Shown here one piece after another: positions 57,058 through 62,482 of a stretch of 64,000 bases of DNA. Position numbers and translations under genes: made by a program. How positions within the stretch are numbered: the stretch's first letter is position 1; the number at the start of each line of letters is the position of its first letter. The notes beneath the pieces were generated by a model. The model searched no databases and was not told the DNA's origin. It worked only from the letters and a program-made list of their open reading frames with translations. The DNA is from Sphingomonas changbaiensis NBRC 104936 (GTDB lineage: Bacteria; Pseudomonadota; Alphaproteobacteria; Sphingomonadales; Sphingomonadaceae): NCBI RefSeq assembly GCF_000974765.1, contig NZ_BBWU01000035.1, positions 1-64,000 of the forward strand. Direction: 5' to 3'.

Positions 57058-57738
57058 ATGACGACGATCGCGCGACTGGCCGAAACGGCTGCACTGATCG
57101 GCGATCCGGCGCGCGCGGCCATGCTGTACGCGCTGATGGACGGCCGCGCCTTCACTGCCGGCGAGCTGGCGCAGGCCGCAGGCATCACGCCGCCCACGGC
57201 CAGCGGCCACCTCGCCCAGCTCGTCACCGCCGGAATGCTCGCGGTCGAGCCCCAGGGGCGCCACCGCTATTTCCGCATCGCCTCGCCAGAGATCGGCGGG
57301 ATCGTCGAGGGCCTGATGGCCGTCACAGCCAATCGAGTGGACCGGCTACCCAACCCCGGCCCGCGCGACCCGGCGCTGCGCAAGGCCCGCATCTGCTACG
57401 ACCATCTGGCAGGCGAACTCGGCGTCGCCCTGTTCGGATCGCTGGCCAAGGCCGGCCACATCAACGTATCACCGGAAGGCGCCGGTCTGACGGCCAGCGG
57501 CACGCGCCTTCTCGACCGGCTCGGGATCGAATGGCCCGAAAGCCGCCGCCTCGCCTGCCGCCCCTGCCTCGACTGGAGCGAACGCCGCCACCACCTCGCC
57601 GGTCAGGCCGGCGCGGCGATCTGCTCCGCCGCCCTCGCCCGCGGCTGGGTGCGCCGGCGCCAGGGCACGCGGACGCTGGACATCACGCCCGCGGGCGCAA
57701 AGGCGTTCGCCGATAGCTTCGGCGTGCGGCTGGGCTAA
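57058..57738 (+). CDS. ArsR-family winged-helix regulator
   Basis: A 226-residue regulator. HTH: AAMLYALMDGRAFTAGELAQAAGITPPTASGHLAQLVTAGML (about 20-62), wing VEPQGRHRYFRI. It is much longer than classic ArsR and lacks the metal-binding ELCVCDL motif. The C-terminal half has CRPCLDWSERRHHLAG and may be a ligand domain. It is divergent from NIPSNAP-ABM, which it probably represses. Confidence 0.85.
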   Translation: MTTIARLAETAALIGDPARAAMLYALMDGRAFTAGELAQAAGITPPTASGHLAQLVTAGMLAVEPQGRHRYFRIASPEIGGIVEGLMAVTANRVDRLPNPGPRDPALRKARICYDHLAGELGVALFGSLAKAGHINVSPEGAGLTASGTRLLDRLGIEWPESRRLACRPCLDWSERRHHLAGQAGAAICSAALARGWVRRRQGTRTLDITPAGAKAFADSFGVRLG

Positions 57739-57740
57739 CT

Positions 57741-58269
57741 CTACGCCCGCCAGTGCTCGCACGACTGGCCCCAGATGTGGATCGGCGCGCTCTCGAAGGG
57801 CGGCGGCAGCTTGCCCGGCCCGCGCAAAACCGACCCGAGCCGCTCGGCGACGCGGATCGAGCCGGTATTCGCCGGATCGATGCAATGGATCACCTCGGTC
57901 CAGCCGAGCGTATGGAAGGCCCAGTCGATGGCCCGCGCTGCGCCTTCGGTCGCATAGCCCTGGCCCCAGGCGCTGCGCACCAGCCCCCAGCCGACTTCCG
58001 TCCCCGGCCAACCTTCCGGCGCCCAAGGACCCAGGCGCCCGATCCAGCGCCCGCTTGCCCTCTCGATGAAACATTCCGAAGCCCTTCAGCGCCCAGCTCC
58101 CGGTCATCGCCGCCACGCCGCGCCATGCCGCCGCTCGCGGCTGGGCGCCGCCGATGAAGCGCGCCGCCTCTTCGTCGCCCATCAGCTCCGCCCAGCCATC
58201 GAGGTCGTCGGCCATCGGCGGCCGCAGGATCAGCCGCTCGGTCTCCAGCGTCGGTCCGAGCGCGCTCAT
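57741..58269 (-). pseudogene. GNAT acetyltransferase, frameshifted
   Basis: The N-terminal half (MSALGPTLETERLILRPP..., read from 58269) continues normally to GFGMFHRE near 58065, then loses homology. The C-terminal half is in another frame: GRWIGRLGPWAPEGWPGTEVGWG, then VRSAWGQGYATEGAARAIDWAFHTLG and ending EHWRA at 57741. The break is at about 58066-58075, beside the TTT after ATG. The two frames together make a typical RimJ-like GNAT of about 175 residues. It is either a real inactivation or a 1-2 base sequencing error. It overlaps the deacylase gene by 4 bases. Confidence 0.75.
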
Positions 58270-59945
58270 CCCGTGCACCGCCCCTTGCCCGGACCCCACA
58301 CAGCCCGGCCAGGCGTGGCGCCGGTATGTTCGCCGTCCTTCAGCACCTGCACGCCGTTCACGAACACGTCGCGCATCCCGGTCGCATAGACCTGCGGCTT
58401 GTCGTAGGTCGCGCGATCGGCGATCGTCCTGGGGTCGAACACGACGATGTCGGCGAAATATCCAGCCTTCAGCGATCCGCGGTCCTTCAACCTCAGGTTC
58501 GTCGCCGGAAAGCTGGTCAGCCGCCGCACCGCGTCCTGCAGCGTCGTCGTCTTTTCGTCCCGCACATATTTGCCGAGCAGCCGTGCGAAATTGCCATAGG
58601 CGCGCGGGTGGGTGGCCGATTTCAGGAACACGCCCTCCGGCGCCTGGCTCTCCGCGTCCGATCCGAACGCGACCCAGGGGATCGCCGTCTGCCGCGCGAC
58701 GTTCTTCTCGTCCATCAGGAAATAGGCCGTGCCCACGCGGCTGCCGTCCTCGATCACCAGGTCGATCGCGGTTTCCTCCGGGCTCTTCCCGCGCATTTTC
58801 GCGACCTCGGCCAGCGTCTTGCCGGTCAGCGGCTTCAGCGCCGGGTTCTTGAAGGCGAGCAGCAGCACCTTGTCGTCGCCGCCGGTCTGAAGCCGCAGAT
58901 TCTCCCAGCCTTTCCCCGGCTGCTTCATCTCGGCGATCACCCGCGCGCGGATCGCCGGGTCCTTCAGCCGCGCGATCCACGCCTCCAGCCCGCCGTCCTG
59001 CACCCACAGCGGCAGCGCCGCGTCCAGCCCGGTCGCGCCGGCGGTGTAGGTGTACATATCGGCAGTGATGCGCGTGCCGGCCTTGCGCGCGGCCTCGACG
59101 CGCTCGATCACCGCCGGCAGCTTGCCCCAATTGCCCGCGCCCGCTTCCTTCAGGTGATAGATTTCCGCCGGCCCGCCGGACTGCTTCGCGATCTCGATCA
59201 GCTCATCGATCGCGCCCAGCAGATCGTCGCTCTCGTTGCGGATATGGCTGATATACATGCCGCCGCACTTCGCGCTTTCGGTCGCCAGCGCGATCAGCTC
59301 GGGCGTCTCGGCATAATTGGCAGGCGCGTAGATCAGCGACGATCCGACGCCCAGCGCGCCTTCGTTCACCGCCTGGCGCACCAGCCCGCGCATCCGGTCT
59401 AGCTGCTCAGGCGTCGGGTCGATGTCCTTTTCGCCCAGCTCATGGATGCGCACCGTGGTCGCGCCGACGAAGCTCGCGACATTGGGCGCGATGCCGCGCT
59501 TTTGAAGGAAGGTCAGATATTCACCCAGCGTCGTCCAGCTGACCGGATATCTGATGTCGCCCTGCCGCTTTTCGTAATCGGCCTTCATCTGCGGCGTGAA
59601 TGGTCCCATCGACCAGCCCTCGCCGAATACCTCCAGCGTCACGCCCTGGCGAATATCCCCTTGGCTGCGGCCGTCCTGCACCAGCGAGTCGGTCGACCAG
59701 CTGAGCATGTTGATGAAGCCCGGCGCAACGGCGAGGCCCCTCGCGTTGACCTCTCGCGCGCCGTTCCCGGAGAATTTGCCGATCACGACGATCCTGTCGC
59801 CCTTCAGCGCAACGTCGCCGACAAAGGGCGCGCCTCCCGACCCGTCATAGATCGTTCCGCCGCGGATCACGACGTCATAGGCCGGCTGCGGCGAAGCACT
59901 GGTCAGCAGCGCGGCAGCAAGTAACGCAAAAGCTGGACGGATCAT
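58266..59945 (-). CDS. N-acyl-D-amino-acid deacylase-like amidohydrolase with altered metal site
   Basis: A 559-residue exported amidohydrolase: signal peptide (FALLAAALLTSASPQP), DVVIRGGTIYDGSG start and TIM-barrel core. In D-aminoacylases the first metal motif is an HxH (GFIDxHTH) and a Cys; here residues 76-87 read GFINMLSWSTDS and the Cys position is EVFGEG (105-110). The later ligands are kept: His234 in ISHIR, His264 in YHLKE, and Asp430 in FGSDAE. The 30-residue His-His spacing is that of the real enzymes. So it may bind one metal or be altered in activity. It neighbours a D-amino-acid-oxidase-like gene. Confidence 0.8.
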   Translation of the reverse strand: MIRPAFALLAAALLTSASPQPAYDVVIRGGTIYDGSGGAPFVGDVALKGDRIVVIGKFSGNGAREVNARGLAVAPGFINMLSWSTDSLVQDGRSQGDIRQGVTLEVFGEGWSMGPFTPQMKADYEKRQGDIRYPVSWTTLGEYLTFLQKRGIAPNVASFVGATTVRIHELGEKDIDPTPEQLDRMRGLVRQAVNEGALGVGSSLIYAPANYAETPELIALATESAKCGGMYISHIRNESDDLLGAIDELIEIAKQSGGPAEIYHLKEAGAGNWGKLPAVIERVEAARKAGTRITADMYTYTAGATGLDAALPLWVQDGGLEAWIARLKDPAIRARVIAEMKQPGKGWENLRLQTGGDDKVLLLAFKNPALKPLTGKTLAEVAKMRGKSPEETAIDLVIEDGSRVGTAYFLMDEKNVARQTAIPWVAFGSDAESQAPEGVFLKSATHPRAYGNFARLLGKYVRDEKTTTLQDAVRRLTSFPATNLRLKDRGSLKAGYFADIVVFDPRTIADRATYDKPQVYATGMRDVFVNGVQVLKDGEHTGATPGRAVWGPGKGRCTG

Positions 59946-59979
59946 CGGCTCCCCCTTGTTTCGGGAAAGCCTAGCGTGC

Positions 59980-61248
59980 TCAGAGCAGGTTGGAAGAGGG
60001 CGTGGAGCCCGACATCACCAGCACTGCGTCATAGCCGAACACGACACGCAGCAATTCCGGATCGACCTTGCTGCTGTTCGAATAGACCAGCGGACGAAGG
60101 GCGTGGGTGTCGAACAGCGTGAACGCGTCGGGCCGTGCCTCGCCGATCATCCATTCAAGGCCCTTCTGATAGCTGTCCTTGGGAGCGTTCGGCGCATAGC
60201 GGAACCTAGTCGGATCGAAGACGGCAGCACGGGACTCGTTGCCGGGCAGCACCAGCAGGTGAAAGCTGCGTGCGCCCCGCGCTTCGGCCAGCTCCGGCAC
60301 CAGTGAGCCCAGATCGAACGTGCTGGTCTCGTTCAGGCCACGGATCATGTGATTGGAGCCGTACTTAAGCAGCACCTTGGGCGGCTTCGGTGACGCCGCA
60401 CAGGGCTGCCAGTGGCGAAGAAAATTGCGCCGCATGTTCGCTGCGCGACGAGCGTTCGAAGCCCAGCCCTGGCGCGACACCCAGAGCCGATTGACCTCGA
60501 AGGTTTCCTCCAGCGTCGATAGGATCCAGTCCGCCTCGGGGCCGATGCCGGGCCAGGCCGCGCGCACAGCACGCACCAGTTCGGGGTCGCCGCCGAAGCT
60601 GTACATAAAGCGCGGATTGCGGGTTGCCTCATACTGCGCCCAGGACTCTGTCGACGCCTTTTCCAGTTGACTGAGTGCCGCCTCCGCCGCAGCGGGCTTG
60701 CGCATCGGCTTCAGCAGATGGATCAGGCGACGGTCGGCACCGACCTCATAATCATTGCCCCAGATCACCTGGCGCGCGCCGGGCACCGCGGCTCGCGCCG
60801 CGGAAAGCCATTCGGCCTCCTCGCGCATGCCGAAAAAGGCGACGTTGGAGCCCTGGTCGCCGAAATAATCGGTCAGGGCCGGGACGCCGCCGCGGACGAG
60901 CACCCGGTCCACCTCCCGCGCCATTGGCGGCGATATCTCGACCGCGACATGGCCATAGCCAGCCGGCACCAGATCCCGGAACAGCTGAGCCGCGAGCTTC
61001 GGGTTCTCGGCGATGCCATGCTCCTCGCCCAGCAGGAAGAACGCGGCGTCCCGGCCCTGGCCAACCAGCCAGTTATAGGCCGCGCCCGAAAAGCGGCCAT
61101 CCGCGAAATCGAGCCGCTTTCGCGCATCCCGTGCCGCCCCGCGCACCTTGTCCTCGGCGGTGGGCGAGGACGTTTGCGCCACGACCGGCGCCAGTGGAGC
61201 CGCCGCCAGCACCGCGCTTCCTGCCAGAACCGAACGCCGATCGAGCAT
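59980..61248 (-). CDS. EreA/ChaN-like exported hydrolase
   Basis: A 422-residue protein with a Tat-like signal (LDRRSVLAGSAVLAAAPLAP, twin Arg). LLGEEHGIAENPKLA near residue 70 is the GE-x-HG motif of erythromycin-esterase-like proteins, and a second His lies in YGSNHMIRG. No esterase substrate can be inferred. It stands next to the deacylase and divergent from the D-amino-acid-oxidase-like gene; a 22-bp inverted repeat (61265-61286) lies between. Confidence 0.65.
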   Translation of the reverse strand: MLDRRSVLAGSAVLAAAPLAPVVAQTSSPTAEDKVRGAARDARKRLDFADGRFSGAAYNWLVGQGRDAAFFLLGEEHGIAENPKLAAQLFRDLVPAGYGHVAVEISPPMAREVDRVLVRGGVPALTDYFGDQGSNVAFFGMREEAEWLSAARAAVPGARQVIWGNDYEVGADRRLIHLLKPMRKPAAAEAALSQLEKASTESWAQYEATRNPRFMYSFGGDPELVRAVRAAWPGIGPEADWILSTLEETFEVNRLWVSRQGWASNARRAANMRRNFLRHWQPCAASPKPPKVLLKYGSNHMIRGLNETSTFDLGSLVPELAEARGARSFHLLVLPGNESRAAVFDPTRFRYAPNAPKDSYQKGLEWMIGEARPDAFTLFDTHALRPLVYSNSSKVDPELLRVVFGYDAVLVMSGSTPSSNLL

Positions 61249-61264
61249 CGCCCACCTTTCGACT

Positions 61265-61286
61265 GTGTATTGCTCGAATAATACAC
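61265..61286. promoter_or_regulatory. Inverted repeat in divergent promoter region
   Basis: GTGTATT-8-AATACAC: 7-bp perfect arms, total 22 bp. It lies 17 bases before the EreA-like gene and 60 bases before the D-amino-acid-oxidase-like gene. It looks like a dimeric regulator site (for example GntR or MarR type); no regulator gene is adjacent. Confidence 0.5.
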
Positions 61287-61345
61287 CATGACACACCTGT
61301 CCAGCGGCTTGTCGACACCGCCCCTTCGCCTCTACGGCGCTGGTC

Positions 61346-62482
61346 ATGACCAAGACCGCGGACTTCCTGATCATCGGCGGCGGGATCGCCGGCCTCTCCA
61401 CCGGCGCCCGGCTGGCGAAACATGGCAAGGTCGTTCTGCTGGAGGCGGAGGAAGCGATCGGCTATCACAGCTCCGGCCGCAGCGTGACCTTCTCCCATTT
61501 CGGGATCGGCGGCGTGACGGTGAGGGCCCTCACCGCCTACAGCCGCGCCTTTTTCCAGTCCCCGCCCGACAGCTTCGACCCGCTTGCCGCGGTCAGGCCG
61601 GCGCTGTTCATTGCCAACCAGGCGATGGTCCCCGCGCTCGACGAGCTCGAGCGAATCACGCGCAGCCACGCGGACGCCGTCGAGCGGCTCGATGCCCAAA
61701 GCGCGGCAGATTATTGCCCGGCGCTCCGCTGGGCGCCCGATGCGGTGGTGGCCGCGTTCGTCCACCGCGAAGGGCTGAAGCTCGATCAGCACGCGTTGCT
61801 TCAGGGCTATGCGCGCGCGATCCGTGCCGCGGGGGGCGAGATCGTGAACGGCACCCGCGTCGCGTCGATCGGCCCCAGGTGGCGCGTCCAGACCGAGGCC
61901 GGCGACAGCTACGAGGCCCCGATCCTGGTCGACGCGGCCGGCGCGTGGGCGGACCATGTCGCCAAGCTTGCAGGCGTTCAGCCGCTGAGGCTTTCGCCGC
62001 TCCGCCGCACGATCATCGTGTTCGATCCGCCATCGGACATGAGCGTGCGCGACTGGCCGTTCGTGAAGACCGCAGTCGATTATATGTACCTGATGCCCGA
62101 TTCCGGCCGCCTGCTCGCGTCCCCTGTCGATGAGAATCCGGACGAACCTTGCGATGCCCAGCCCGACGAGCTCGACATGGCGATCGCCGCGCATCGGGTG
62201 ACCGAGTTCACCACGCTCGACGTCCGTCGGATCACCCACAAATGGGCGGGCCTGCGGACGTTCGCGGCCGATCGCGTGCCGGTCGCTGGCTTCGCGCCCG
62301 ATGCCGAGGGGTTCTTCTGGCTTGCCGGCCAGGGCGGCTATGGCCTCCAGACCGCGCCGGCGATGGCCGAGATTGCAGAGGCCCTGGTCCTCGGCACCGC
62401 CTGGCCGCAGGCGATCGCGGCAGCGGGCGTTACGATGGAGCAGATCAGGCCGGAGCGACTGCTCCAGCGATCCTCGACATAG
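61346..62482 (+). CDS. FAD-dependent oxidoreductase (D-amino-acid oxidase/dehydrogenase-like)
   Basis: A 378-residue flavoenzyme of the DAO family. DFLIIGGGIAGLSTGARLA (about 6-24) is the FAD-binding GxGxxG loop, YHSSGRSVTF and the C-terminal LAGQGGYGLQTAPAMAEIAE complete the FAD fold. It oxidises an amino acid or related amine. The deacylase-like gene nearby could supply free D-amino acids. Substrate is not certain; the neighbouring annotation suggests D-amino acids. Confidence 0.85.
   Translation: MTKTADFLIIGGGIAGLSTGARLAKHGKVVLLEAEEAIGYHSSGRSVTFSHFGIGGVTVRALTAYSRAFFQSPPDSFDPLAAVRPALFIANQAMVPALDELERITRSHADAVERLDAQSAADYCPALRWAPDAVVAAFVHREGLKLDQHALLQGYARAIRAAGGEIVNGTRVASIGPRWRVQTEAGDSYEAPILVDAAGAWADHVAKLAGVQPLRLSPLRRTIIVFDPPSDMSVRDWPFVKTAVDYMYLMPDSGRLLASPVDENPDEPCDAQPDELDMAIAAHRVTEFTTLDVRRITHKWAGLRTFAADRVPVAGFAPDAEGFFWLAGQGGYGLQTAPAMAEIAEALVLGTAWPQAIAAAGVTMEQIRPERLLQRSST

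Follow-up and report, generated by a model that had tools for sequence, protein, structure and literature searches.

The amidohydrolase gene and its predicted fold

This analysis concerns an amidohydrolase gene of Sphingomonas changbaiensis NBRC 104936, located on the minus strand at positions 58266..59945 of a 64,000-nucleotide stretch of contig NZ_BBWU01000035.1, the whole of which is referred to here as the window. Based on its open reading frame (ORF), a Pfam match to Amidohydro_3 (4.1e-17), phmmer and a predicted model, the gene encodes a 559-residue protein with the D-aminoacylase fold, of a type that carries a Glu and not the HxH motif (non-HxH/Glu type). The first-pass annotation had named His234, His264 and Asp430, together with the segments MLSWS and EVFGEG in place of the HxH and Cys motifs, and all of them are present in the ORF. 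MLSWS comprises residues 80-84 (59694..59708, minus strand, as for all sites of this gene), where alignments place L81 and W83 at the HxH position of D-aminoacylases. EVFGEG comprises residues 105-110 (59616..59633); conservation counts and the alignment point to its Glu109 as the proposed metal ligand replacing Cys. Additionally, a putative signal peptide of approximately residues 1-21 (59883..59945) was read from the hydrophobic N-terminus, whose best 11-mer has a mean Kyte-Doolittle (KD) value of 2.39.

The best PDB sequence match was the D-aminoacylase 1m7j (phmmer, 3e-66). In this alignment, the HxH segment IDSHTHDD lies opposite INMLSWST and the Cys segment TGNCGIS lies opposite FGE-GWS, with no Cys at that place, while His234, His264 and Asp430 are retained. 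PMC12017989 describes a D-aminoacylase-like enzyme, PpOngB, which is beta-mononuclear, with Cys97, His222, His252 and the catalytic Asp368, and with Tyr194, Lys254, Tyr285 and Arg379 as its anchors for the acetamido and carboxylate groups. These four residues align with Tyr206, Lys266, Tyr298 and Arg448 of the window protein, and Asp368 aligns with Asp430 (58656..58658), the invariant predicted catalytic acid/base, which is also equivalent to AfDAA Asp366. His234 (59244..59246), invariant in HxH and non-HxH types, and His264 (59154..59156), invariant in non-HxH rows and aligned with PpOngB His252, are predicted beta-metal ligands, and Lys266, two residues past His264, is a predicted carboxylate anchor.

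The structure model was built from a 59-row alignment (mean pLDDT, the predicted local distance difference test score, 95.4) and replaced a model from a 12-row alignment (83.3). Compared by VIA-align, it superimposes on 1m7j with Z 55.2 and a root-mean-square deviation of 1.8 over 466 residues, and on the N-acyl-D-glutamate deacylase 3gip with Z 55.4; 3gip, 9g5m, 1v4y, 1rjq, 1m7j and PpOngB all score Z 54-55, and the next fold family, the dihydroorotases, scores Z 33. The protein is thus modelled with the D-aminoacylase (beta/alpha)8 fold. In the model, residues 80-84 come after strand 77-79 and Glu109 comes after strand 102-107, which are the places that HxH and Cys occupy in the sequence alignment. 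The only substantial NCBIfam match was PRK09061 (NF006560), at 216.7 bits below its curated cut-off of 340, and no other NCBIfam family matched the 59 members of alignment A2 at E<=1e-30. As judged by these scans, no NCBIfam model names the non-HxH clade, whose members are annotated as "D-aminoacylase" or "amidohydrolase family protein" although the defining motif of the annotated metal site is absent.

Conservation, predicted export and spread of the non-HxH type

Relatives were gathered from a contig search (80 loci, 58-74% identity, referred to as the named loci), from whole-genome samples and from plasmids (13 records chosen from the top of a list of 58). The window gene itself (L001), a partial sequence (L158) and the genome's own HxH paralogue (L002), which is misaligned downstream, were left out of the counts. 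This left 179 rows, 13 of them repeats of loci already in the set, and 166 distinct cores; such repeats are also contained in counts based on 128 or 136 non-HxH rows. Membership of the non-HxH group was decided on the HxH columns first, and Glu109 was counted afterwards.

HxH is absent in 123 and present in 43 of the 166 distinct relatives. Glu occupies position 109 in 123/123 of the non-HxH relatives and in 0/43 of the HxH relatives, and His234, Arg236, His264, Lys266, Tyr206, Tyr298, Asp430, His446 and Arg448 are each found in 123/123 of the non-HxH group, which additionally carries the clade-specific residues S158, I205, N272, D400 and Y408. The first HxH position is Leu in 113, Met in 7 and Gln in 3 of these relatives, and the second is Trp in 98, His in 18 and Gln in 7. 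A fixed MLSWS, which the first-pass annotation proposed to look for, is therefore only partly borne out: the first position is always Leu, Met or Gln, and Trp occupies the second in 98/123. An error or local oddity as the origin of MLSWS is ruled out by the fixation of the non-HxH/Glu pair in relatives, and the protein is a real, widespread enzyme variant with an ordinary fold and an unusual, fixed metal site.

The HxH relatives have Cys at the Cys place or, in many, Asp. One Asp-type row with a stray Cys (L020) was labelled Cys in one tree, which leaves the HxH count unaffected. From its residues, the HxH and Asp combination is a second unusual metal-site type. Sphingomonad HxH relatives with Asp at this place (GNDGGG/GVDGGG) adjoin dgcN/dgcA (L272 3745-8557; L230, L231, L219 and L239), and in L272 RefSeq itself names dgcN and dgcA. 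The paralogue in the window genome (G000:C31:21827-23539) is of the canonical type, with HTH and GNC and 29% identity.

According to a hydrophobicity rule applied to the N-terminus rather than a trained predictor, a hydrophobic N-terminal segment is present in 118/132 located non-HxH rows (repeats included) versus 4/12 Cys-type rows. Most non-HxH proteins thus look exported.

A tree of 95 rows with the motif columns blanked, made, as all our trees, by a quick search without bootstrap, separated HxH from non-HxH by a single change (Shimodaira-Hasegawa-like approximate likelihood ratio test, SH-aLRT, 97), with six changes of the second HxH position inside the non-HxH clade. In the simplest reading of these sequences, a single branch saw the loss of the first His and the gain of Glu, with Trp appearing later. 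The direction, from HxH to its loss, is taken from HxH being the common state across the amidohydrolase superfamily; the root was not inferred by the tree. The first-pass suspicion of a distinct amidohydrolase subgroup whose metal site is unusual is thus supported, HxH loss and Glu being coupled in 123/123 relatives on one branch.

By record titles, many of them metagenome-assembled genomes (MAGs) whose single bin assignments may therefore be wrong, the non-HxH type occurs in Pseudomonadota, Bacteroidota, Gemmatimonadota, Acidobacteriota, Verrucomicrobiota, Planctomycetota and Ignavibacteria; plasmid records extend it to Deinococcota and Actinomycetota. Typed non-HxH genes were found in 8/398 genomes of the window's phylum (own genome counted), in 9/59 genomes of its family and in at least 23/198 genomes of the Bacteroidota sample, where matches without a locus stayed untyped. 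In MAGs of distant phyla, four relatives (L056, L063, L067 and L072) share 62-67% identity with the window protein, which suggests horizontal transfer or wrong bins. Phylogenetically, the gene belongs to a bacterial branch of the D-aminoacylase family that is large and has been overlooked.

Gene neighbourhoods in the window and around relatives

Upstream of the amidohydrolase gene by 34 nt, on the minus strand, an ORF at 59980..61248, probably co-transcribed with it, encodes a protein with a twin-arginine translocation (Tat)-like signal and a probable start, MLDRRSVLAG, at 61248. The product has no Pfam family, a sub-threshold TAT_signal being its single match with the limit relaxed to E<=10, and its sole PDB match is an effector chain (E 0.19), whose fold we take to be EreA/ChaN-like; the earlier label "EreA-like" is thus not borne out by these searches, and we keep it as a name only. 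Divergent from it, as first proposed for a gene of the DAO family, lies an FAD (flavin adenine dinucleotide) oxidoreductase gene on the plus strand (61346..62482), whose product resembles the D-arginine dehydrogenase DauA (PF01266, 2.2e-55; phmmer to DauA 3nyc, 3.8e-84). Directly 3′ of the amidohydrolase gene, a frameshifted GNAT-like acetyltransferase reading frame (57741..58270, minus strand; family by inspection), with its halves in two frames, is a pseudogene or an assembly error. An ArsR/MarR-like protein is encoded nearby (57058-57738).

The EreA-like gene was found in 5/59 same-family genomes (own counted) and near none of the homologues examined (0/80 named loci and 0/40 non-HxH regions spanning at most 19 kb). 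The DAO gene was near 0/80 named loci and in 1/40 of the same regions (L192, 45% identity). These neighbour counts rule out a conserved operon of the three genes, and the D-amino-acid module described in the first-pass annotation does not hold as a conserved unit.

Between the starts of the two divergent genes, an imperfect 22-bp palindrome, GTGTATTGCTCGAATAATACAC (61265..61286), pairs at 9 of 11 positions. At least as palindromic are 32 of the ~64,000 22-mers of the window; shuffling the intergenic region gave a 22-mer as good in 40/5000 cases and an even-length palindrome (18-24) with at most two mispairs in 401/5000. The palindrome noted in the shared promoter region is therefore real and correctly placed, although imperfect and weak. 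A second genomic copy with 2 mismatches (G000:C26:140225-140246; L260 1501-1522) sits just upstream of an unrelated membrane-protein ORF, and with this single further site a regulon signature is unsupported.

DgcN is a D-glutamate N-acetyltransferase, and DgcA is an N-acetyl-D-glutamate racemase that is also close to L-Ala-D/L-Glu epimerase. Within ~9 kb, dgcN or dgcA was found in 6/40 non-HxH regions, 12/38 HxH regions and 0/40 control regions, which were drawn from the contigs of 20 non-HxH regions at a distance of ~100-200 kb (Fisher p 0.013 for non-HxH and 6e-5 for HxH); within 6 kb, either gene was found at 7/80 named loci. Full D-glutamate/dipeptide clusters are present in L170 and L262. 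In Sphingopyxis microcysteis (L076, G214 copy), a divergent cluster comprises an S12 hydrolase, a DgcA-like epimerase, an M19 dipeptidase, a TonB receptor, DgcN, a protein without a Pfam match, S12 and M19, where the NCBIfam scores fall below the cut-offs (DgcA 360.7 vs 400 bits, DgcN 452 vs 480). The order on a Croceicoccus plasmid (L262) is dipeptide epimerase, peptide transporter, TonB receptor, DUF1611, hypothetical protein, serine hydrolase and amidohydrolase, and three Deinococcus plasmids carry GNAT, an ABC transporter, serine hydrolase(s), amidohydrolase and a MurR-type regulator, with a dipeptidase in one. L269 and L271 have neighbours of other kinds, outside this pattern.

On haloarchaeal plasmids, HxH relatives adjoin an epimerase and DUF1611, and a Natrialba HxH relative is accompanied by NlpC/P60, an epimerase, a serine hydrolase and diaminopimelate decarboxylase (lysA). 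With an epimerase, a serine hydrolase and a D-aminoacylase, the gene groups at L265 1118-7590 and L267 6995-13796 resemble a bacterial cluster for breaking down cell-wall peptides.

Proposed function and comparison with known enzymes

We favour, as the probable reading, an enzyme exported by its sequence that would act as a metal-dependent amide hydrolase with the D-aminoacylase fold, a redesigned metal site and N-acyl- or aminoacyl-D-amino-acid substrates. One divalent metal, probably Zn, would be held in the beta site by Glu109, His234 and His264, with Asp430 activating the metal-bound water and the acyl C=O polarised jointly by Tyr206 and the metal; the departing D-amino acid would be held through its alpha-carboxylate by Lys266, Tyr298 and Arg448. 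Given the retained anchors and the presence of dgcN/dgcA near both site types, the expected substrates are N-acyl-D-amino acids and not a new class; the substrate is probably within that class, and its acyl group may be an amino acid, as in X-D-Xaa dipeptides from muropeptides or other D-peptides. The role would be to feed D-amino acids from D-peptide debris into catabolism, and in the window genome the adjoining DauA-like dehydrogenase could oxidise the released product.

As for precedents, PpOngB, being beta-mononuclear, indicates that one metal suffices. E. coli and V. cholerae NagA are described as having QXN where HXH would stand, along with one metal-binding motif only, and mutation to QXN is reported to have left a binuclear NagA active with a 7-fold higher Km (Michaelis constant) (PMC6016474); the CE9 metal site is given as Glu/His/His (PMC12017989). 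We therefore propose by analogy that a Glu/His/His one-metal site most likely arose in parallel with that of NagA. A fuller version, in which an ancestral single switch from Cys/His/His to Glu/His/His produced a NagA-convergent one-metal enzyme acting as an exported, periplasmic X-D-amino-acid dipeptidase/deacylase in muropeptide or D-peptide scavenging, is possible but distinctly more tentative.

Several observations weigh against the favoured reading. The strongest against a simple HxH loss is that PpOngB H68A and H70A are each inactive (PMC12017989); loss of both His thus needs compensation. Glu109, the putative ligand, aligns one residue before the Cys place through a one-residue deletion. 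PpOngB Ser291 contacts the carboxylate through both its side chain and its main chain (PMC12017989), and its equivalent is Ala in 90 and Ser in 26 of 136 non-HxH rows. The D-glutamate context is confined to a minority of non-HxH loci (6/40; 7/80 named loci), no dgcN was found in the window genome, and its dgcA-like match is weak (42 bits). S12 hydrolases lie near 15/80 named loci without significant enrichment over control (6/40 vs 3/40, p 0.24) and are therefore not relied on. Finally, DgcN and DgcA are taken as cytosolic, in contrast to the mostly exported-looking non-HxH proteins, so that a shared compartment is not required.

The same metal chemistry acting on another substrate class (a lactone, an ester or an amide without alpha-carboxylate), which the first-pass annotation suspected, is the least improbable of the alternatives, though still unlikely. 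Amidohydrolases switch substrate easily, PpOngB being proposed to descend from D-aminoacylases and to have shifted to an amino-sugar acid as substrate (PMC12017989); in most rows Ala stands in for the Ser that contacts the carboxylate, and the clade-specific S158, I205, N272, D400 and Y408 could mark a different pocket. However, Tyr206, Lys266, Tyr298 and Arg448 are retained in all 123 distinct non-HxH relatives, and dgcN/dgcA neighbours are common to both types, which argues against a new class. Membership in the DgcN-DgcA route, as the missing deacetylase freeing glutamate from N-acetyl-glutamate, we regard as improbable. It would fit the positions of dgcN, ~0.4-8 kb from the non-HxH genes of G401:C1, G401:C5, G406:C62 and G214:C1 and close to HxH genes in 8/12 family-sample cases, and the conversion of D-Glu to N-acetyl-L-Glu by EC 2.3.1.312 and 5.1.1.25 reported in PMC11747546. 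However, the window genome lacks dgcN, and the reaction would yield an L-amino acid, unlike that of known D-aminoacylases. The acetyltransferase step also requires acetyl-CoA in the cytosol, whereas most non-HxH proteins look exported, which makes a periplasmic peptide role more likely than cytosolic N-acetyl-glutamate deacetylation. An inactive or metal-free relative retained for another purpose is very improbable: both His needed in PpOngB are lost, and a metal-independent subset exists in the classification of amidohydrolases (PMC12017989), but the remaining catalytic and anchor residues are invariant in the 123 distinct rows from many phyla, and a newly fixed Glu in the ligand region is unlike decay.

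If the Glu/His/His reading is true, the clade would represent a clean single metal-site switch within one fold and, going by its neighbours, within a single pathway slot. In that case there would also be a defined enzyme to test for how bacteria exploit D-amino-acid debris, a form of organic nitrogen that is hard to degrade. Regarding whether homologues with the same motif are proven D-aminoacylases, a point raised at first pass, none of the matches was a solved PDB chain with the non-HxH/Glu motif, and no description of a non-HxH D-aminoacylase was found in the literature, most subscription journals lying outside the coverage.

Among known enzymes, the D-aminoacylase of Alcaligenes faecalis (1m7j) and the N-acyl-D-glutamate deacylase of Bordetella (3gip), of subtype V, share with the window protein the fold (Z ~55), two ligand His, the catalytic Asp and the carboxylate anchors; the window protein differs from them in lacking HxH, in the Glu one residue earlier that replaces Cys, in its greater length and in belonging to a usually exported type. 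The PpOngB GlcNAc1A deacetylase (9kb1) has in common the fold, the beta-mononuclear one-metal logic and the anchors, but requires HxH and Cys97 and acts on an amino-sugar acid. With NagA of E. coli and V. cholerae, the window protein would share a Glu/His/His one-metal site and the lost HxH, its own site being predicted from residues fixed in the clade. NagA was not among the matches listed in the sequence and fold comparisons, a listing that does not exclude NagA likeness. NagA is of another family by sequence, and its metal-ligand Glu comes from another strand; the likeness would thus be convergent. As to gene context, mlrF of microcystin-degrading sphingomonads, annotated as a D-aminoacylase (PMC6256522, PMC6563193), lies beside a dipeptidase (PMC6256522). 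At the Pab87 CubicO peptidase locus (PMC2651629), the gene of an S12-type peptidase has a D-aminoacylase gene and a dipeptide transporter nearby, and the breakdown of D-amino-acid debris has been proposed; this locus is archaeal, unlike the window gene, and is likened to it by gene context and not by metal-site type.

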